A stretch of DNA of 34,888 nucleotides from DASVDK01 sp036381125 [NCBI: Thermodesulfobacteriota bacterium]. GTDB taxonomy: Bacteria > DASVDK01. The position numbers were made by a program, and so were the translations under genes. The stretch covers positions 1 through 34,888 of the forward strand of contig DASVDK010000124.1 of NCBI GenBank assembly GCA_036381125.1. Reading direction: 5' to 3'. The first letter of the stretch is position 1; each line of letters starts with the position of its first letter. Below, piece after piece: positions 897 to 27,619 of the stretch. The notes under the pieces were generated by a model, which was not told the origin of the DNA, made no database searches, and saw only the letters and a list, made by a program, of their open reading frames with translations.

Positions 897-3800
897 ATGA
901 GCGGAGCCAGACGGTCGGCGCGCCGGCGGCGCGGCGGCACCGACGGCACCCCGGAGGACGCGGGCGAGTCGCCCGTGCGGGCCACGGACGAGCCCGGCGA
1001 CCAGGCGCCGGCGCGGGTCGACGACCGGGCCGGCGAGGGGCCGGCGGCCGTGCCCATCCGCGTCGTCGGCATCGGGGCGTCGGCGGGCGGGCTCGAGGCG
1101 ATGACCGACCTGCTCGGTCACCTCCCGCCGACACCGGCATGGCCTTCGTCCTGGTGCAGCACCTCGACCCGGCGCACGAGAGCCTGCTCGCCCCGCTGCT
1201 CGCCCGCGTCACCGACATGCCGGTCGTCACGGCCGCGGACGGGATGCCGGTCGAGCCGGACCACGTCTACGTGATCCCGCCGGACGGGGCGCTCGGGGTC
1301 GACGGGATGCGCCTGTGGCTGTCGCGGCGCGGCCACGCGCCCGAGGCCCACTACACCGTCGACACGTTCCTCCGCTCGCTCGCGGCCGCCCAGCGGCACC
1401 TCGCCGTCGCGGTCGTCCTCTCCGGCGCCGACAGCGACGGCGCCCTCGGCGTGACGGCCGTGAAGGGGCAGGGCGGCGTGGTGCTGGCCCAGGAGCCGGC
1501 CTCGGCGGGCCACCCCGGGATGCCGTGCCACGCCATCGCCACGGGGTGCGTGGACTTCGTCGGCACGCCCGACGAGCTGGCCGCGGAGCTCGGCCGCCTG
1601 GCCGCGACCTCCCCCGAGGCGCTCCTGGAAGCGCCGGCGGCCACCGACGGCACGATCCGGCAGGTCTTCCAGGTCCTGCAGTCCGCCACCGACGTCGACT
1701 TCGCCTGCTACAAGCCCTCCACCGTCCACCGCCGCCTCGCGCGCCGGATGGCGCTCGTCGGGGTGCAGGACCTCCGCGACTACCTGCGGTACCTGCAGGA
1801 GCGCCCGGCCGAGGTCGACGCGCTCTACCAGGACCTGCTCATCAACGTGACGCGGTTCTTCCGCGACGCCGAGGCGTTCGACGTCCTCGCGGAGAAGGCC
1901 TGGCCGACCATCCTCGAGGCCCGCCGGCAGGCGGATCGGCCGATCCGCATCTGGGTGCCCGGCTGCTCCACGGGCGAGGAGTGCTACTCGCTGGCGATCT
2001 GCCTCTTCGAGTACCTCGACGCCCACGCGCCGGGGACGCCGGTGCAGATCTTCGGCACCGACGTGAGCGACCGGATGCTCGAGCGGGCCCGGGCCGGCGT
2101 CTACCCGGAGGACATCACGCTCGACGTCCCCGCGGAGCGGCTGCGCCGCTACTTCGTCAAGGTCGACGGCGGCTTCCAGGTGGCCAGGCCGGTTCGCGAC
2201 AGTTGCATCTTCGCCAGCCAGAACCTGACGCGCGACCCGCCCTTCTCGGGCCTCGACCTGATCAGTTGCCGCAACGTGCTCATCTACCTGACCGTGCAGG
2301 CGCAGCGGCGGATCGTGCCGGTCTTCCACTTCGCGCTCCGCCCGAACGGCTTCCTCCTCCTCGGCAGCTCGGAGACGGTCGGGCCGCACGCCGACCTCTT
2401 CCGGTTGGTCGACACGGCCCGGAGCCTCTACGCGAAGGAGCCGGTCCCGACCCGCTTCGACTGGGAGGTCGCCCGGATCGAGCCGCGCGAGTCGCGGGCG
2501 GGCGCCCCCGTGGAGTCGCCGCAGCGGCCGCACATCGACCTCCGGAGCGAGGCCGTCCGCGAGGGGGAGCGCCAGCTCCTCGACCGCTTCGCCCCGCCGG
2601 GCGTCCTCGTCACCGAGGCCCTCGAGGTCGTCTACGTGCGGGGCGACACCGGCGCGTTCCTCGCGCCGTCGCCCGGCGAGGCGAGTCTCAACCTCCTCAA
2701 GCTCCTGAAGCCCGGCCTCCTGCCGGGGGTGCCGCGTGTGCTCCGCGCGGCCCGGGGCCGGACGGAGGTGCTGCGCCGAAAGGCGGGGCGCGTGGAGATC
2801 GACGGCCGCTCTCGCGAGGTGGCGATCGAGGTGGTTCCCGTCCCGAGCCGCTCCCGGCCGTTGCACTACCTCGTCCTGTTCGACGCGTCCCCCGGGGCGC
2901 GTGGGGCCGGGCGGCCCCGGGCGCGCGCGAGCGTGTCCCGCTCCGGCGCGAGCCGGCGGATCGCCGAGATGGAGGCGGAACTCGAGGACGCCCAGGAGGC
3001 GCTCCGCACCGTCGTCGACGAGCAGGCCGGCGTCAACGAGGAGCTCAGGGCCGCCAACGAGGAGGTGGTTGCGAGCAACGAGGAGCTGCACGCCACCAAC
3101 GAGGAGCTGGAGGCGGCTCGCGAGGAGCTTCAGGCGACCAACGAGGAGCTGGCCACCCTCAACGAGCAGCTCCAGAGCCGCAACCGGGACCTGAACCAGC
3201 TCACCAACGACCTCACGAACCTCCTCGCGAGCCTCAGCATGCCGATCGTCATGGTCGGGCGCGATCTCCGCTTCCGGCGGATCACGCCGCTCGCGACGCG
3301 CGTCCTCAACGTGCGCCCGAACGACGTGGGCCGGCCGGTGTCCGAGATCCGCACCGGCCTCACCGGGCCGCCGCTCGAGTCGCTCGTCCACGAGGTGCTC
3401 GACAGCCTCGCGGTCAGAGAGGTCGAGGTCGAGGACGCCGCCGGACGTCCGTGGCTCATGCGGATCCGCCCGTACAAGACCGACGATCAGCAGATCGACG
3501 GGGTCGTGATCGCGCTCGTCGACGTGAGCGACCTGCGGGCGGTCGCGGCCGGACTGCGCGGGGCGCGCGAGTACGCCGACGCGGTCGTCGCCATGGTGCG
3601 GCAGCCGCTGCTCGTCCTGGACCGGGACGGTAACGTCCGCCTCGCGGACCCCGGGTTCTGCCGGACCTTCCAGGCCCTGGAGGGGGAGGTGCTCGGGCGG
3701 CCGCTCGCGCAGATCTCGGGCGGGGCCTGGGAGCGCGCCGGCGTCACCCGCCTGGTCACGGACCCCCCGGCGAACGGGGACGAGGTTCGCGAGGCGGTGG

Positions 3801-5158
3801 TGGAGGAGGACTTCGCCCCGATCGGGCGACGCCGGCTGGTCGTCACTGCTCGGCGCATCGATGCGGAGTCCGGTGACGATCCTCTCGTGCTGGTGGCCGT
3901 CGACGACGTCACCGAGGGCTCGGCGCCGGGGAGGCGTCGCGACGCGGGCGCCGAGGAGAGCCTCGGCGACGAGCGCAGGGCTCGGGAGGAGGCCGAGGCC
4001 GCCAGCCGGGCCAAGGACGCCTTCCTGGCCACCCTCTCGCACGAGCTGCGCACGCCGCTCACCTCCATGCTCGGCTGGGTGAGCATGCTGCGGGGCGGCA
4101 GGCTCGATCCCGCGACCGTCAACCGGGCCCTGGCGGCGCTCGAGCGCAACACGAAGGTCCAGGTCCAGCTCATCGAGGACCTCCTCGACGTGTCGCGCGT
4201 GACGAGCGGAAAGTTCCGGATCGACTTCCGCCCGGTGGACCTGGCGGCCGTCGCGCGGGCCGCCGCCGACGTCGTCCGGCCGGCAGCCCTGGCCAAGGGG
4301 GTGCGCCTGGTCGTGCAGGCCGCTCCCGGCGTGACGGTCCTCGGCGACCGCGACCGATTGCAGCAGGCCGCCTGGAACCTCCTCTCGAACGCGATCAGGT
4401 TCACGCCGAGGGACGGCGAGATCCGCCTGTCCGTCTCCCGCGCGAACGGACAGGCCGAGCTGTCGGTGCGGGACACCGGAGCCGGCATCCCCTCGCAGCT
4501 GCTGCCCCAGGTCTTCGATCGCTTCCGCCAGCTCGGGGGCAACGCGACCCCGCCGCACGGCGGCCTCGGCCTCGGCCTCGTCATCGTCCGCCACATCGTC
4601 GAGCTGCACGGCGGCGTGGTGCGGGCGGAGAGCGACGGGCGGAACGAGGGCTCGACGTTCACGATCAACGTGCCGCTCGCGCCCCGGGCCGGCGTGGAGA
4701 CGGTCGAGGACGCGGCGGCCGGCCCACCCGTCCTCGTCGGCGAGGCGTCGCTCACCGGGGAGAACGTCCTTGCCGGGGTGCAGGTCCTCCTCGCGGAGGA
4801 CGAACCCGACGCGCGCGACATGCTGGCCGCCGCCCTGGCGCACTACGGTGCGCAGGCAACGGCCGTCGGCTCCGTTCGGGAGGCGCTCGCGGCGCTCGGC
4901 CGGCAGGTGCCCGACGTGCTCGTCGCGGACATCGCCATGCCGGAGGAGGACGGCTACGTCCTGATCCGGCGCGTGCGGGCCCTTCCGTACGACCGGGGGG
5001 GCCGGGTGCCGGCCCTGGCGCTGACGGCCTACGCGCGGGCGGAGGACGTCGAGCAGGCGAAGGCGGCCGGCTTCAACGTCCACCTCGCCAAGCCGATCGA
5101 GCCGGCCGTCCTGGCGCTCACCGTGGCGCAACTCGCCGGGCCGCGCACCGGCCGCTAG
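897..5158 (+). CDS. CheB-CheR-PAS-histidine kinase-receiver fusion, interrupted by an apparent -1 frameshift near 1129
   Basis: A giant chemosensory hybrid of about 1,420 residues when the two frames are joined. From 897 the first frame gives a charged leader and the CheB start PIRVVGIGASAGG (catalytic Ser). At about 1125-1135 the homologous frame moves to the one starting at 1139, which continues with AFVLVQHLDP (catalytic His) and SGADSDGALG (catalytic Asp region). One missing G (CCGCCGACACC for CCGCCGGACACC) explains the shift. Then follow CheR (about 1660-2440; SAM site VPGCSTGEECYSLA, SCRNVLIYL), a coiled coil of repeated NEEL motifs (about 2958-3220), two PAS-like domains (3225-3920), HisKA (SHELRTP, His codon 4040-4042), HATPase (NLLSNAIRF, GGLGLGL) and a C-terminal receiver with Asp codon 4928-4930. 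The family couples methylation-type sensing to phosphotransfer. Without the repair, translation from 1139 would give a CheB domain lacking its nucleophile. Confidence 0.85.
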
Positions 5159-7586: not shown

Positions 7587-9435
7587 ATGCGTGTCGGAAG
7601 GTCGTGGGGGTGGGGCCGGTCGCTCGCGGCGGCGGCCGCGCTGGTGATCGCGGCGCTCGGAACGTCGCCGGCCCATGGACAGGAGCCGCGCCCGGAGGCC
7701 TCGCCCGCGGAGACCCGCCGATCGTGCTGCCGGCGGTGACGGTCACGGCGACCAGGACGCCGCGCGCCGTCGAGGAGACGCCGGGGACCGTGTCGGTCAT
7801 CGGCGAGGAGGAGATCGAGCGGGAGCTCGCGCGGGACATCGAGGACCTCGTCCGGCACGAGCCGGGCGTGATGGTGCGGACCGACCCCAACCGGTACGGG
7901 AACGGCGGCTTCAACATCCGGGGCATCGACGGCAACCGGGTGGCGATCCAGGTGGACGGCGTACGCGTCCCCGACCAGCTCACCGGGACCATCCCGCTCA
8001 CGCGCGACTACGTGGACCTCTACCTCGCGCGGTTCGGCCGGCCGTGGTACGCGAGCGGCAAGGGGGCGTACTACTCGTCGAGCGAGACCTGGGCCGAGAC
8101 GGTGACCCTGGCCGGCCGGGCCGGTCCGCTCGACGCCCTCCTCCTCTTCACGCGGCGCGACGGACACGAGACCGAGAACAACGGCGCCATCCCCGCGAAC
8201 CCGAAGGACATCGTCTCGAGCAACCTCCTCGGCAAGCTCGTCTGGCGAGCGGGGGAGTCGAGCACGTTCCGCCTCACGGGGGAGTTCTTCGAGCGCGACA
8301 CGGAGACCGACGTGGCGAGCGATCGAACCGCCACGCTCCTCGCCCGCCTCGCCGAGGAGGAGACGCGGCGCAGCCGGGTGAGCCTGGCGCACGAGTACCG
8401 TGACGCCGGGGCCGGCCTCGTCCAGGGGGTCCGCTGGCAGCTCTACTACCAGGACGGCGAGACGCGCGACACCGCCGAGGAGCGCCGGATCGTGGGCGGC
8501 TCCGAGCGCCTCAGACCGATACCTGGCGCGCCGGCCTCTACGTGCAGGACGAGATCGGCGTCGGCCCCGCGGAGCGGCGCACGTCGATCATCCCCGCCGT
8601 CCGGCTCGAGTACTATCGCCTGAACCCGCGGCCGGACGCCGACTTCGCGCGGATCAACACGCGCGACGCCCTGGTCGACGAGGTCTCCGAGTTCGCCGTC
8701 TCCCCCAAGCTCGGCGTGATCGTCGGGCTCACGCAGGAGCTGTCCGCCTTCGTCCAGTACACCCGTGGGTTCCGCAGCCCGCCGTACGACGAGGTCGGCA
8801 CCGCCTTCACGAACTTCACGTTCGGCTACACGGTGCTGCCGAACCCGGACCTCGGGCCGGAGACGAGCGACGGCTTCGAGGTGGGCGTGCGCGGCGCGTA
8901 CCGGCCCGTTCGCTTCCGGCTCGTCGGCTTCTACAACCTGTACGACGACTTCATCGAGACGGTGCCGGTCGGCGAGGTCGACGGCCTCGACGCCTTCCAG
9001 GCGAGGAACCTCACCGAGGTGCGGATCTTCGGAGCGGAGGCGGAGGTGGAGATCGCGCTCGGCGCCTTCTGGTCGGCGCTGGAGGGGCTGAGCCTCCTCG
9101 GCGCCGCCGCCTACGCCGAGGGGGACAACGAGGAGACCGACCAGCCTCTCGACTCGGTCGCCCCGCCGAACGGCGTGGTCTCGCTCCGCTACCGGGAGCC
9201 GCGAGACCGCTGGGGGGCCGAGGTGGCGGCGTCGATCGTCGCGCCGAAGCACCGGGTCGCCGGCAGCGGCTCGAGCGGGTCGCCGTTTTGCACGCCCGGC
9301 TTCGTCACGGCGGACCTGACCGCGTACTGCAACGTCGGCAGGCGGGTGACGCTGGCGGCCGGCGTCTTCAACGTCCTCGACCTCTACACCCAGCCGGGTC
9401 GCCACGCGAGCGCGAGCGTGACCGTCCGCTTCTGA
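7587..9435 (+). pseudogene. TonB-dependent receptor (hemoglobin/transferrin/lactoferrin class), two frameshifts and missing segments
   Basis: ATG 7587 follows GGGGAGGG and encodes a signal peptide (LAAAAALVIAALGTSPAHG). At about 7712 a G appears to be missing, and the plug continues in another frame: LPAVTVTATRTPRAVEETPG, DLVRHEPGVMVR, GFNIRGIDGNRVAIQVDGVRVPD. Barrel sequence follows to about 8513, where a C appears to be missing (CGCCTCAGACC). The frame then shifts to QTDTWRAGLYVQDEI and runs to the C-terminal YTQPGRHASASVTVRF, with the terminal Phe usual for outer-membrane barrels. Compared with the family as I know it, the plug segment carrying the RGP..LYGS.ALGG motif is absent after RDYVDL, the stretch before TDTWRAG is short, and the conserved YW..SDVRG near the C-terminus is missing after FNVLD. 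The receptor as read is probably non-functional. Confidence 0.75.
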
Positions 9436-17040: not shown

Positions 17041-17071
17041 CAAGGCGCCGGCGCCGGCGGCCGGCGCCTTG
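17041..17071. repeat. Perfect 11-bp inverted repeat in the divergent intergenic region
   Basis: CAAGGCGCCGG (17041-17051) is mirrored by CCGGCGCCTTG (17061-17071). A third related sequence, CGCCTTGAC (17079-17087), pairs with GTCAAGGCG (17039-17047). The outer elements contain TTGACA (minus strand) and TTGACG (plus strand). The arrangement could be an operator shared by the divergent amidohydrolase and thioesterase operon. Confidence 0.5.
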
Positions 17072-17082
17072 CGGTCGCCGCC

Positions 17083-17112
17083 TTGACGACGGCGCCGCCG
17101 GTCGGCTACAGT
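17083..17112 (+). promoter_or_regulatory. Candidate sigma-70 promoter of the thioesterase-MEMO-amidase operon
   Basis: TTGACG (17083-17088) and TACAGT (17107-17112) with an 18-bp spacer, 46 bp before the GTG start at 17158. It overlaps the CAAGGCG-type inverted repeat, so repressor control is plausible. Confidence 0.5.
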
Positions 17113-17157: not shown

Positions 17158-17619
17158 GTGGAGCCTGTGACCGAGCGGGAGGCGGGGGCCGGGCGAGCGG
17201 GGTGGCCGAGCGTTCGCGCGGTCGCCTCGGCCGTCGTGCCCTACGCCGACACCGACGCGCAGGGGCGCGTCTACTACGGACACTACGCCCGCTACCTGGA
17301 CGAGGGGAGGTTCCGGCTCTGGACCGCCGCGGGCTTCGACGAGGCGGAGCTGCGGCGGCTCGAGCACGCCACGGTGCTCGCGCGTCTCGAGATCGACTAC
17401 CGCGGGCCCGCGGAGTTCCACGACCGCCTGCGCGTCGCGGTGGGGATCGAGTCGATCGGCCGCACGAGCCTCGTGCTCCGCTACGCCGTGACGCACGCGG
17501 ACGGCCGCCCGGTCCTCGACGCGCGTCAGGTCCTCGTGCACGTCGACCTCGCGGCGGGCGGGCGCCCCGTCCCGTGGACCTCCGCGGATCGGGCGCGCCT
17601 CGATCCCCTGGTCGGCTGA
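17158..17619 (+). CDS. Acyl-CoA thioesterase, 4-hydroxybenzoyl-CoA thioesterase (hot-dog) family
   Basis: 153 residues. The hot-dog signature VVPYADTDAQGRVYYGHYARYLDEGR carries the active-site Asp and the following G.V.Y..Y pattern of the 4HBT/YbgC group. The remainder (LEIDYRGPAEFHDRL, IGRTSLVLRYAVTH, RQVLVHVDL) follows the family strand order. It hydrolyses acyl- or aryl-CoA thioesters; the acyl group is not predictable. GTG 17158 is chosen because AGGTGG lies about six bases upstream; GTG 17167 is a close alternative. It is the first gene of a plus-strand operon: the next start (17621) comes one base after its TGA, implying translational coupling. Confidence 0.85.
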   Translation: MEPVTEREAGAGRAGWPSVRAVASAVVPYADTDAQGRVYYGHYARYLDEGRFRLWTAAGFDEAELRRLEHATVLARLEIDYRGPAEFHDRLRVAVGIESIGRTSLVLRYAVTHADGRPVLDARQVLVHVDLAAGGRPVPWTSADRARLDPLVG

Positions 17620-17620
17620 C

Positions 17621-18892
17621 GTGGCGCCCGAGCGGCCACGCCTGCGAGCCGTCGAAGCCTTCCCGATCGAGCACGAGGGCCGGCGGCTCCTCGCGCTGCG
17701 CGACCCCTCCGGCCTGGCCGACCGGACGCTCGTGATCGCCGCGGAGGCGGCGGGCCTGCTCGCCCGGCTCGACGGCCGCCACACGCTCGAGGACCTCGTC
17801 GGCGCGCACTTCCGGGCCACCGGGGTGCTCCTCTCGCTCCGCGAGGTCGAGGGGCTCGTGGAGCTGCTCGATCGCGAGCACTTCCTCGACTCGCCCGCGG
17901 CGGCGCGTCGGCGGGCGCTCCTCACGGAGGCGTACCGGGCCGCGCCGCACCGGCCGGCCGCCCACGCCGGGATCTCCTACCCGGCCGACCCGGACCAGCT
18001 CGACTCGCAGCTCGCGGCCCTCGAGCGCGCGACGCGCGTCGACGTCGCGGCGCCGGACGGCGGCGGCGAGCTGGTGGCCATCGTGGCCCCCCACATCGAC
18101 CTCAGGGTCGGCGCCGCGACGTACGTGCCGGCCTATCGGGCGCTCGCGGCGGCCGGCGGCGCGGACATCGCCGTCGTCCTCGGCGTGGGCCACATGGGGA
18201 TCCCCGGCCTCTTCGCGGCCGGGACGCTCGACTTCGCGACGCCGCTCGGCGTCGCCCGCACCGACCGCGCGTTCGTGGCCGAGCTGTCGGCGGCGTTCGG
18301 CGACGACCTGACGGCCGAGGAGCTGGCCTTCCGGACCGACCACACGGTCGAGTTCCAGGTCCTCTTCCTCCAGCGCGTCCTCGGCGACGGCGTGCGGGTG
18401 GTCCCGCTCCTGGCGAGCTTCGGCTTCGAGGAGGCGCGAGGGGAGGCGGCCGGGCGGATCGGCCGCTTCGCGGCCGCCCTCCGGGAGACGATCGCGCGTC
18501 GCCGCGACGAGGGGTTGCGGGTGGTGGTCGTCGTCTCGGCCGACCTGGCACATGTCGGGCCGCGATACGGCGACCCGGCCCCCTTCGACGAGGAGCAGCT
18601 CCTCCGCGTCGAGGAGGCCGACCGCGCCCTGCTCGAGACCGTGGCCGCGGGCGACGCCGCGGCCCTGCTCGACCGGCTCGCGGCCGACCGGGACCGCTTC
18701 CGCATCTGCGGCTTCTCCCCCCTCTACACGGCGCTCGGCGCGGTCGGCGTGCGCGGCGGGCGGCTGCTCGCCTACGGCCGGGGCCCGACGGACGGCGCCG
18801 GCTCGATCTGCTCGTACGCATCGCTGGCGCTCTACGGCCGGGCCTCCGGCGCGCCAGGTCTTCCGATCACTGACGGAGGTGAGACACGGTGA
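17621..18892 (+). CDS. amrB: MEMO-family protein (AmmeMemoRadiSam system protein B) with extra N-terminal domain
   Basis: 423 residues. Residues about 120-405 form the MEMO1/AmrB domain, structurally related to LigB-type class III extradiol dioxygenases. Recognisable segments are AGISYPADPDQLDSQL, VAIVAPHIDLRVGAATY (metal-site His), VVLGVGHMG, RTDHTVEFQVLFLQ, VVSADLAHVGPRYGDP (second His) and RICGFSPLYTALGAV (conserved Cys). The first roughly 110 residues are an additional module (FPIEHEGRRLLALRDPSGLADRT, ..EDLVGAHFRATG..) that looks like a small winged-helix or PqqD-like peptide-binding domain; this is inferred from pattern only. Usual partners AmmA and the radical SAM protein are not in this window. 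The start GTG 17621 follows the previous stop by one base. It overlaps the next gene by four bases (GTGA). Confidence 0.85.
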   Translation: MAPERPRLRAVEAFPIEHEGRRLLALRDPSGLADRTLVIAAEAAGLLARLDGRHTLEDLVGAHFRATGVLLSLREVEGLVELLDREHFLDSPAAARRRALLTEAYRAAPHRPAAHAGISYPADPDQLDSQLAALERATRVDVAAPDGGGELVAIVAPHIDLRVGAATYVPAYRALAAAGGADIAVVLGVGHMGIPGLFAAGTLDFATPLGVARTDRAFVAELSAAFGDDLTAEELAFRTDHTVEFQVLFLQRVLGDGVRVVPLLASFGFEEARGEAAGRIGRFAAALRETIARRRDEGLRVVVVVSADLAHVGPRYGDPAPFDEEQLLRVEEADRALLETVAAGDAAALLDRLAADRDRFRICGFSPLYTALGAVGVRGGRLLAYGRGPTDGAGSICSYASLALYGRASGAPGLPITDGGETR

Positions 18893-19098
18893 CCCGTACA
18901 TCCGACGACGAGACCCTTGCCGCGTTCGCCGCGGCGGTCGGGGCCGCTTCGCTGGGCGAGCCGGACCTGAACCGCCTGATCGCGACCGCGAGACAGGTGC
19001 GCGAGGACGCGCGCGCCGTGGCGGCGCTCGACCTCGAGGACGTCGAGCCCGAGGCGCGCCCGCAGGTCGACCTGCCGACCGGGGGGGCCGAGTCGTGA
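18889..19098 (+). CDS. GatC/AtzG-like small amidase partner
   Basis: 69 residues, two predicted helices and an acidic C-terminus: FAAAVGAASLGEPDLNRLIATA, then VAALDLEDVEPEARPQVDL. The pattern (short helical hairpin followed by a V-E-P-rich extended tail) matches GatC and the AtzG/DUF4089 type proteins that wrap around amidase-signature enzymes and stabilise them. The start GTG 18889 overlaps the MEMO gene stop, and the TGA at 19096-19098 overlaps the amidase start, so all three are translationally coupled. It is immediately followed by an amidase but no GatB is present, so it is more likely a dedicated subunit of that amidase than part of the tRNA amidotransferase. Confidence 0.65.
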   Translation: MTRTSDDETLAAFAAAVGAASLGEPDLNRLIATARQVREDARAVAALDLEDVEPEARPQVDLPTGGAES

Positions 19099-20522
19099 TC
19101 GCCTCCGCTCCGCACGGGGACCTCGCCTTCCTCGGCCTCGCCGAGGCGAGCCGCCGCCTCGCCGAGGGCGGCATCTCGGCCGTGGACCTGACCGAGGCGA
19201 TGCTCGCCCGCATCGAGGCGCTGAACCCGAGGTTGAACGCGTTCCTGGCGGTCGAGGCCGACCGGGCGCGAGCCGCGGCGCGGGAGTCGGACGCCCGCCG
19301 CGCCGCCGGTCGCGCCCGCGGCCCCCTCGACGGCATCCCGATCGCCGTGAAGGACATCGTCTGGCGTGCCGGGCGGCCGATGACTGCGGGGGCGAAGCGT
19401 CCGGTGGTCGAGCGGGCGCCGGAGGACGCCACGGTCGTGGCCCGCCTCGAGGCCGCCGGGGCGATCATCCTGGGCGCCACGGGTCTGCACGAGTTCGCCT
19501 ACGGGGTGACGAGCGTCAACCCGCATCACGGGCCGGTGCGCAACCCCTGGGCCATCGACCGCAACCCCGGCGGCTCGTCCGGCGGCTCCGGCGCGGCCGT
19601 GGCCGCCGGGCTGGCGTACGGCGCGCTCGGCACGGACACCGGCGGCTCCATCCGCATCCCGGCCTCGGTCTGCGGCATCGTCGGCCTCAAGCCAACCTAC
19701 GGGCGCGTCTCGCGGCACGGCGTCTTCCCGCTCGCCTGGTCGCTCGACCACGTGGGGCCCATGACGCGGCGCGTCGAGGACGCCGCGCTGCTGCTCGAGG
19801 CCATCGCGGGCGCCGATCCGGCCGACCCCACGGCGAGCCGGCGGCCGGTGCCGGCCTACGCCTCGCGCCTCGGGCGGAGCGCGAACCCGCCGCTCGCGGG
19901 GCTGCGCGTGGGGGTGCCGCGCGGCTTCTTCTTCGACCGCGCGGAGCCCGAGGTCGCGGGCATCGTCCGGGCGGCGATCGACCGGCTCGCCGGTCTCGGC
20001 GCCGCGGTGCGGGAGGTCGCGCTGCCGAAGCACGAGGCGAGCGTCCCGGCGGCGCTCCTCGTCCTGCTCGCGGAGGCGGCGGCGGTCCACGCGCGCCGCC
20101 TGGCCGAGGCGCCCGGCGACTACGGCGAGGACGTGCGGGCGCGGCTCGAGCAGGGGCGCCTCGTCCCCGCGTCGGACTACCTGGCCGCGCAGCGCGCGCG
20201 GGCGGTCGTCAGGCGCGAGCTGGCCGAGGTGCTGCGCGAGGTCGACTGCATCGCGACGCCGACCACCCCGACCACGGCGGGCCCGCTGTCGGAAGGGGCG
20301 AGCGGCCCGGCTGACGCGGCGCGGCGTGCGATGACGCACTTCACGCGCCCGTTCAACCTGACCGGCTTCCCGGCGCTCTCGATGCCCTGCGGCTTCACGG
20401 CCGAGGGTTTGCCCGTGGGGCTCCAGCTCGTCGGCCGTCCGTTCGAGGAGGGCACGCTCCTGGCCGCGGCGGCACCGCTCGAAGCGGCTCTCGGGCTCAC
20501 GGCGCGGCGCCCGACGGCGTAG
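19095..20522 (+). CDS. Amidase signature family hydrolase
   Basis: 475 residues from GTG 19095. It has the full Ser-cisSer-Lys machinery: Lys86 in GIPIAVKDIV, cis-Ser at 161-162 in NPGGSSGGSGAAVAAG and nucleophile Ser185 in GTDTGGSIRIPAS. VGLKPTYGRVSRHGVFPL and the C-terminal FTRPFNLTGFPALSMPCGF are typical of amidases and GatA-like enzymes. It hydrolyses a carboxamide; the substrate is unknown. It is the last gene of the thioesterase-MEMO-small subunit operon and overlaps the AtzG/GatC-like gene by four bases (GTGA). No GatB is found here, which argues against Glu-tRNA amidotransferase. No signal peptide is present, so it is cytoplasmic. Confidence 0.92.
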   Translation: MIASAPHGDLAFLGLAEASRRLAEGGISAVDLTEAMLARIEALNPRLNAFLAVEADRARAAARESDARRAAGRARGPLDGIPIAVKDIVWRAGRPMTAGAKRPVVERAPEDATVVARLEAAGAIILGATGLHEFAYGVTSVNPHHGPVRNPWAIDRNPGGSSGGSGAAVAAGLAYGALGTDTGGSIRIPASVCGIVGLKPTYGRVSRHGVFPLAWSLDHVGPMTRRVEDAALLLEAIAGADPADPTASRRPVPAYASRLGRSANPPLAGLRVGVPRGFFFDRAEPEVAGIVRAAIDRLAGLGAAVREVALPKHEASVPAALLVLLAEAAAVHARRLAEAPGDYGEDVRARLEQGRLVPASDYLAAQRARAVVRRELAEVLREVDCIATPTTPTTAGPLSEGASGPADAARRAMTHFTRPFNLTGFPALSMPCGFTAEGLPVGLQLVGRPFEEGTLLAAAAPLEAALGLTARRPTA

Positions 20523-26710: not shown

Positions 26711-27619
26711 TCAGGCGTCCCGGAGCGGGGTGCGGTCGGCCGCCATGCCCATGGCGTGATAGCCCTTGTCCACGTAGAGCGTGGCGCCGGTGATGCCCGA
26801 GGCGAGCGGCGAGGCGAGAAAGGCCGCGGCCGTCCCCACCTCCCGGGCGGTCAGCGCCTCGGGGAGCGGCGAGTTGGCGGCGTAGTACTCGATCATCTTC
26901 TCGATGGTCCCGATGGCCGAGGCGGCCCGGGAGGCGAGCGGACCCGCGGAGATGACGTTCACCCGGTGGCCCCACTTGCGGCCCGCCTCGTAGGCGAGGA
27001 CGCGCGTGTCGCTCTCGAGCGCGGCCTTGGCCGACGACATGCCGCCGCCGTAGCCCGGCACGACCCGCTCGGACGCGAGGTAGGTGAGGGCGAGGAACGA
27101 GCCGCCGGGACGGACGAGCGGTCCGAGACGCTGCACCATGGCGGCGTACGAATAGGCGCTCACCGACACGGCCGCGAGGTATCCTTTGCGGCTGGTCTCG
27201 AGCAGCGGCTTCTTCACCTCCGGGCCGTTGGCGAGGCTGTGCACGACGACGTCGAGGCAGGGGCGGCCGAAGTCGGCCTCGAGCCGGCGCGCGACGCCCT
27301 CGATGCTCACGTCTCCCTGGTCCTTGTAGCGCTTGTTCTCGCGCACCTCGGCCGGTACGTCCGCGTCGGTGTCGAAGGCCGCATCGAGCGGGTAGATCCG
27401 CTCGAACTCGAGGGTGCGGCCGTCCGGCATCTTCAGGGCGTCGGCGATCTTGCCCCGCTCGAGGAGCGTCTTGAAGATGCCGAGCGCGGGCGGCCAGGTG
27501 CCGAGGCACACGGTCGCGCCGGCTTCCGCGAGCGCCTTCGCGATGGCGAAGCCGAACCCGTCGTCGTCGGCCACGCCGGCGACGAACGCGCGCTTGCCGC
27601 CGAGATCGATAGCGAGCAT
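26711..27619 (-). CDS. fabI: Enoyl-[acyl-carrier-protein] reductase, plant-type FabI
   Basis: 302 residues. NAD(P)H-dependent reduction of enoyl-ACP, the last step of each fatty-acid elongation cycle. SDR fold with N-terminal [23 protein letters not shown]; catalytic residues Tyr180 and Tyr190 and Lys198 within [22 protein letters not shown]. The Tyr-Lys spacing of 8 and the [14 protein letters not shown] string are those of the plant/chlamydial ENR subgroup; E. coli FabI has a spacing of 7. The longer insertion between about 45 and 105 (..[24 protein letters not shown]..) is also typical of that subgroup. The start ATG 27619 has GGAGGG upstream. TAGAAT at 27656-27651 may be its -10. It is divergent from the MFS exporter. 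Confidence 0.93.

Follow-up and report, generated by a model that had tools for sequence, protein, structure and literature searches.

The PCAD-Memo superfamily is reportedly the subject of a 2019 paper by Burroughs and others in the Journal of Biological Chemistry, which PMC7159879 and PMC7694686 cite. Memo proteins lack an established reaction, as far as the passages on MEMO1 in PMC11081632 go, and these passages describe H49, H81, and C244 of this human protein as holding iron and copper. Fusions of a Memo domain with a recognition element (RRE) of ribosomally synthesized and post-translationally modified peptides (RiPPs) are named, in one sentence of the excerpted text of PMC12710340 (mSystems 2025), as predicted and unprecedented in RiPPs. 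Among two-part amidases, the small protein AtzG is described as non-catalytic, and its partner AtzE as insoluble without it (excerpts of PMC6219798). The present work deals with a 34,888-nucleotide stretch of DASVDK01 sp036381125, a Thermodesulfobacteriota bacterium (contig DASVDK010000124.1, the whole stretch being referred to as the window), and with a four-gene operon on its plus strand encoding a thioesterase, an RRE-Memo fusion protein, a small protein, and an amidase. This operon probably constitutes a lineage-local arrangement (with a probability of about 0.6), in which separate units, namely RRE-Memo, the small protein with the amidase, and the thioesterase, are brought together on one transcript. 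The RRE-Memo fusion is the more interesting of the two subjects, and is, by its sequence matches, widespread in at least three phyla.

Gene order at the locus and elsewhere

The operon spans positions 17158-20522, and comprises the following features.

17083..17112, plus strand: TTGACG-18-TACAGT, upstream of the operon and resembling a sigma-70 promoter (a consensus match, no proof)
17158..17619, plus strand: 4HBT hot-dog-fold acyl-coenzyme A (acyl-CoA) thioesterase of the YbgC/FadM type, 153 amino acids (P0001; from PF13279, TIGR00051, and YbgC structures)
17621..18892, plus strand: RRE-Memo fusion protein, 423 amino acids (P0002; from Pfam, AlphaFold2 model, and structure comparison)
17630..17893, plus strand: N-terminal PqqD/RRE-like winged-helix domain of the fusion protein, residues 4-91 (from structure comparison of the model and PqqD matches in relatives)
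17939..18841, plus strand: Memo domain, residues 107-407 (from the MEMO1 fold and a profile match)
18092-18094, 18191-18193, and 18707-18709, plus strand: predicted metal ligands H158, H191, and C363 (aligned to MEMO1)
18889..19098, plus strand: small protein of 69 amino acids, a probable GatC/AtzG-like amidase adaptor (P0003; from position, length, and LDLEDVEP motif)
19095..20522, plus strand: amidase-signature hydrolase of the AtzE/GatA type, 475 amino acids (P0004; from PF01425, AtzE models, and GatA structure)

A 1-bp gap (17619/17621) separates the thioesterase and Memo genes, and GTGA overlaps join the Memo gene (ending at 18892) to the small open reading frame (ORF; starting at 18889), and the latter (ending at 19098) to the amidase gene (starting at 19095). 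These coordinates, frames, and coupled junctions are those already given in a preliminary description of the locus. A gene call based on codon usage, for which seven genes of the window (including Memo and the amidase) served as the training set, picks all four operon genes, and puts the thioesterase start at 17236, a possible later start. The promoter-like match is the one found upstream, for a shuffle mean of 0.0 (standard deviation 0.1). On the minus strand, a divergent amidohydrolase gene (PF07969/PF01979, 15834-17015) shares the short intergenic region with the operon, and a GC-rich inverted repeat is visible by eye in this region, near 17043-17067.

From the coupling of the genes, the preliminary description deduced a fixed stoichiometry, and it saw in the four of them a candidate for an undescribed system. 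Neither proposal is supported by the gene order found elsewhere. The comparison relies on 158 Memo loci, 155 of them distinct and 151 distinct with the N-terminal domain, which come from four phyla (one of these contributing a single locus) and include none from the window's genome or its close kin; 141 of the 158 offer at least 500 nt upstream and at least 1000 nt downstream. With the window thioesterase, small protein, and amidase as queries (tblastn at E <= 0.01, phmmer at E <= 0.1 on 3387 ORFs), none of these three genes is found beside Memo in the 155 distinct loci, and the four-gene order, hence, recurs in none, although a distant thioesterase could be missed by searches of this kind with window proteins. 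The sole convincing match is an amidase located about 11 kb from Memo (locus L116), a phmmer row at another locus (L062, E 0.043) being unconvincing. With no occurrence in 155 loci, the idea that the coupling reflects a conserved complex finds no support.

Upstream of Memo, the Methylomirabilota loci commonly carry an M20 peptidase-type ORF instead, directly adjacent in 45 of the 71 loci, or in 44 of 70 when duplicates are counted once, one representative being named by Pfam (PF01546, E 2.3e-33) and the others by blastp. Between the M20 stop and the closest available Memo start, there is an overlap of 4 nt at 26 of these 45 loci and of 1 nt at six, a count that favours short gaps, since the start codon nearest the M20 stop was taken. 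An example of an M20 peptidase gene lying immediately before RRE-Memo is found at L001:6625-9227. Downstream of Memo, an ORF of about 152 amino acids without a Pfam match is present in 37 Methylomirabilota loci; the name DUF1285, at first considered for it, is not backed by any Pfam match, and the ORF is left unnamed. The 87 loci outside Methylomirabilota provide an adjacent ORF upstream in 38 cases and downstream in 31, and the Pfam scan of 66 of these 69 ORFs (three duplicates were left out) reveals no family in more than three of the 66, among the matches listed (25 of 69 families), while a single-member family could be hidden. As for small ORFs (20-90 amino acids) near Memo, none is widely conserved, the largest cluster covering 6 of the 155 loci and resembling an alternate reading frame.

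The RRE-Memo fusion protein

The extra domain previously noted on the Memo protein is present, and corresponds, by its predicted fold, to a PqqD/RRE-like winged helix at residues 4-91. The RRE-like character of this modelled fold is well supported. The AlphaFold2 model of the whole protein, built with 62 relatives, has a mean predicted local distance difference test score (pLDDT) of 93.8 and a predicted template modelling score of 0.91, and structure comparison of the full model aligns residues 4-91 with TbiB1 (Z 9.4 and 9.3), TigE (8.9), and ThcOx (8.1). When modelled alone, the domain reaches a pLDDT of 91.6 and displays strands at E12-18, E21-27, and E37-40, followed by helices, which is the three-strand/three-helix winged-helix fold of RREs. 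It then matches leader-bound lasso peptide B1 proteins (6jx3 at Z 9.4, TbiB1 at 9.0), as well as TigE (8.8), PqqD (8.3), ThcOx (7.9), and the PbtF RRE (7.7), keeping in mind that a Z below 8 may reflect merely a common arrangement. TigE and ThcOx are taken here to be RRE carriers. The PqqD Pfam profile matches 10 of the 63 family members at E <= 1 (best 1.8e-4), and is the commonest Pfam match after Memo among them, while the window protein's own sequence does not match it; the sequence profile of the domain retrieves PaaA from the PDB (E 0.0015). A domain of this type may bind a peptide.

The Memo domain is recognized by Pfam (PF01875) with an E of 2.5e-33 over residues 113-387 (115.9 bits, cut-off 27), and residues 107-407 of the model align with the MEMO1 structure 7kq8 at Z 31.4 (root-mean-square deviation 2.7, 277 residues aligned, 23% identity). 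The LigB-like fold announced for this domain is borne out by the next matches, which are LigB-type dioxygenases at Z 16-19, and the metal ligands are retained. When the family profile is aligned to MEMO1 (E 1e-26), H49/H81/C244 fall on H158/H191/C363, which are conserved in 78, 78, and 77 of 78 rows, respectively (three loci being in twice), together with the near-site residues H241 (77/78), D308 (78/78), and H311 (78/78). Removing a partial sequence (L066) and rows more than 85% identical reduced these 78 rows to 65, and the final alignment, with L021 and L032 left out, has 63. The Memo site of the window protein would, by homology to MEMO1, bind metal.

Relatives of the fusion protein are found in 70 of 95 Methylomirabilota genomes (E <= 1e-8), in 44 of 400 sampled Chloroflexota genomes, and in 81 of 294 sampled Planctomycetota genomes (E <= 1e-20 for both), these being the phyla to which we take the groups to belong. 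Identity to the window protein is at most 45% for full-length relatives and up to 49% for partial ones. No relative was found in the plasmid and viral collections. As their alignment begins at query residue 24 or earlier, 154 of the 158 collected loci carry the N-terminal domain, and two genomes (G093 and G094) have extra matches, restricted to query residues 108-345, that appear to be Memo proteins lacking this domain. A profile built from the N-terminal domain by itself matches 25 of 118 sampled genomes of Bacteroidota, the phylum of the Balneolaceae locus, at E <= 1e-5, in frames of 398-514 residues, with the Memo fusion confirmed for only one of these genomes (G003).

The preliminary description also stated that Memo is found here without its usual AmmA and radical SAM partners, and this holds within the window, where the Pfam scan of all 29 called genes gives no match to AMMECR1 (AmmA) or to radical SAM. 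The survey of relatives for AMMECR1 covered Methylomirabilota, 21 of whose 95 genomes have it. It occurs in 16 of the 70 that possess RRE-Memo, on a different contig in all 16, and finds no match in the other 54, these absences being soft because the genomes are mostly drafts.

The amidase, its small partner, and the thioesterase

The last gene of the operon clearly encodes an amidase (Pfam PF01425, E 6.7e-128). AtzE models score best, yet below their equivalog/subfamily cut-offs (377 for 461 bits, and 367.7 for 425.75), and the GatA model yields 348.8 for a cut-off of 481.1; in the PDB, GatA is the nearest match (3.3e-95), followed by biuret hydrolase. From motif positions, K86, S161, and S185 show the spacing of the Lys-Ser-Ser amidase triad. 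The same spacing is found in K79/S154/S178, which we take to be the GatA triad. The closest Methylomirabilota relatives (51-54% identity) sit in 14 genomes (L082-L095), and at two of these loci (L082 and L089), the gene beside the amidase is presumably a YqeB-like selenium-dependent hydroxylase accessory gene.

From its layout, the 69-residue protein is likely a GatC/AtzG-like amidase adaptor. Among the best 30 related amidase loci in Methylomirabilota, of which 29 could be assessed (one is at a contig edge), 21 show a small GatC-like ORF immediately before the amidase gene, 18 being found by pattern and three (L093, L099, and L106) by eye, and eight have none by these criteria. These pairs occur without Memo. 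A profile of 17 GatC-like proteins, made of the window protein and 16 of the 18 pattern ORFs (the near copies L092 and L100 were left out), matches a GatC structure at E 1.1e-6; taken individually (E <= 1), five of the 17 match Pfam GatC and one AtzG-like, and the window protein neither. The latter has no convincing family match of its own. Against a profile built without it, it reaches 6.9 bits, a score exceeded by 6 of 500 shuffles, and, compared pairwise with its 16 relatives, it is equalled by 3 to 207 of 300 shuffles. Its LDLEDVEP-type motif, chosen after viewing the sequence, arises in 15 of 20,000 shuffles, and takes the same form in five of the 16 relatives. The two-part amidase of the preliminary description is, thus, probable, with a clear amidase gene and a small partner that has position, length, and motif in its favour, and that is designated by layout, not proven by sequence.

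The thioesterase matches 4HBT_2 (PF13279, E 8.6e-19), and passes the TIGR00051 model for YbgC/FadM acyl-CoA thioesterases (70.6 bits, cut-off 68.7).

Interpretation of the operon

The absence of the arrangement from 155 loci, the existence of amidase pairs without Memo, and the M20 gene upstream of Memo in Methylomirabilota argue for a lineage-local operon and not for a conserved system. This reading is based on the gene layout, the predicted folds, the conserved metal ligands, and the occurrence of each unit without the other alongside. No common pathway has to be assumed for the units, and any reaction proposed for them is putative. In the first unit, the PqqD/RRE-like domain would capture a peptide or a stretch of a protein, the His-His-Cys site of Memo would bind iron (or copper), and oxidative chemistry could take place at this site, on the captured chain or on a small substrate. 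In the second, the small protein would stabilise the AtzE/GatA-type amidase, which would hydrolyse a small amide. The thioesterase, for its part, would cleave an acyl-CoA.

Several points weigh against this set of proposals. All three junctions match the tightness seen in genuine complexes, and the genes may be functionally linked in this lineage. MEMO1 is described as having no dioxygenase activity on the substrates tried (passages of PMC11081632), and the lack of a conserved small peptide gene beside Memo argues against an ordinary RiPP cluster. Helix-turn-helix domains are the chief false positives of RRE searches (excerpts of PMC7470986). Lastly, non-RRE winged helices rank among the RRE rows of the structure comparison, such as FLJ14393 (2xdv, Z 8.4) and Rickettsia PKMT (8.2 and 8.1).

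These near-equal scores speak for another explanation, a rather unlikely one, in which the N-terminal winged helix has a structural function or binds DNA, and Memo works on its own. It also agrees with the Foldseek search of the lone domain, which found nothing below E 0.001 (best TruD at 0.023 and PqqD at 0.035). Nevertheless, 8 of the 12 top structure rows are, by title or by what is known of them, RRE proteins, three of them solved with a leader peptide, and the rank of PqqD among Pfam matches points in the same direction.

A further reading, which is unlikely, places RRE-Memo at the centre of an uncharacterised system for modifying peptides or proteins, in which the M20 peptidase or the amidase acts on the product. 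The RRE-like fold and the M20 neighbour in Methylomirabilota would suit such a system, as would the sentence quoted from PMC12710340 on fusions unprecedented in RiPPs, but no conserved small precursor ORF accompanies Memo and the window operon has no M20 gene.

The pathway suggested in the preliminary description, in which the thioesterase and the amidase break the thioester and amide bonds of a substrate that RRE-Memo modifies, has a low probability. Every operon junction is coupled, as this pathway would lead one to expect, and the M20 peptidase, being another amide-bond hydrolase, indicates that a hydrolase partner may recur in a different form. Against this, neither the thioesterase nor the amidase adjoins Memo in the 155 distinct loci (the amidase of L116 being the one distant case), GatC-like/amidase pairs exist by themselves, and, among the matches listed, the neighbours of Memo in the other phyla include no family with more than three members. 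Very improbable, finally, is the view of the 69-residue protein as a substrate peptide of RRE-Memo, overlapping the amidase gene by chance, which its place directly behind Memo and its poor profile and pairwise scores would allow, but which is at odds with its position immediately before the AtzE/GatA-type amidase gene, a placement shared by 21 of the 29 related loci, and with its motif, even though the latter was picked post hoc.

In the lineage-local reading, the four-gene grouping matters less, because it is unseen outside the window, and attention shifts to the fusion, for which the working hypothesis is a metal enzyme guided by peptides or proteins. In its broadest and rather improbable form, RRE-Memo would be a widespread, AmmA-independent enzyme of this type, whose RRE-like domain brings a peptide to the His-His-Cys site of Memo, and whose product is processed by a lineage-specific amide hydrolase (M20 in Methylomirabilota, or the two-part amidase here). 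If true, this would provide the first substrate class for the Memo domain. The RRE-like fold, the kept ligands, the presence in at least three phyla, and the lack of an AMMECR1 match in most Methylomirabilota genomes concerned point to peptide or protein substrates.

Other genes in the window

A TonB-dependent receptor gene (7724-9435, plus strand) is split over two frames, with the plug at 7724-8623 and the beta-barrel at 8542-9435, which is due to either a broken gene or an assembly error. The plus strand also encodes, at 1139-5158, a CheB-CheR-PAS-histidine kinase-receiver fusion protein of 1339 amino acids. On the minus strand, positions 26711-27619 correspond to a PRK06300-type enoyl-acyl carrier protein reductase (501 bits, cut-off 356). 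The MetH protein of the window was compared with those of Methylomirabilota and Chloroflexota: its full-length identity is 61-63% to MetH of 34 Methylomirabilota genomes and 36-45% to that of other members of this phylum, while it reaches no more than 46% in 121 sampled Chloroflexota genomes. By this comparison, a Chloroflexota origin is disfavoured, and a position of the window near the 34 Methylomirabilota genomes is probable.

Comparison with known systems

The layout of the last two genes, with a small GatC-like gene immediately preceding one for an amidase-signature enzyme, is shared with AtzG-AtzE, the 1-carboxybiuret hydrolase (excerpts of PMC6219798). The operon differs from it in that the amidase remains below the AtzE NCBIfam cut-offs, the small protein is unrecognised by AtzG-like or GatC models, and the window Pfam matches name no further Atz step. 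The likeness to GatCA of the tRNA amidotransferase lies in the GatC-like layout and in GatA being the nearest structure in the PDB, whereas the amidase is under the GatA cut-off and no GatB is found among the window Pfam matches.

The Memo protein is comparable with protein B of the AmmeMemoRadiSam system (TIGR04336), whose model its Memo domain passes with 86.7 bits for a cut-off of 26; compared with this system, it possesses an additional RRE-like domain, and the 29 window genes offer no AMMECR1 or radical SAM match. With human MEMO1 (7kq8, 3bcz), the fold and the ligands H49/H81/C244 are common, while the RRE-like domain and the bacterial operon are particular to the protein of the window. 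The fusions mentioned in PMC12710340 share with it the combination of an RRE domain and PF01875 in one protein. The passages of that paper drawn upon here mention neither an organism nor an operon, and no partner gene or function, for these fusions, to which the present analysis adds their distribution, their metal ligands, and their lineage-specific neighbours.

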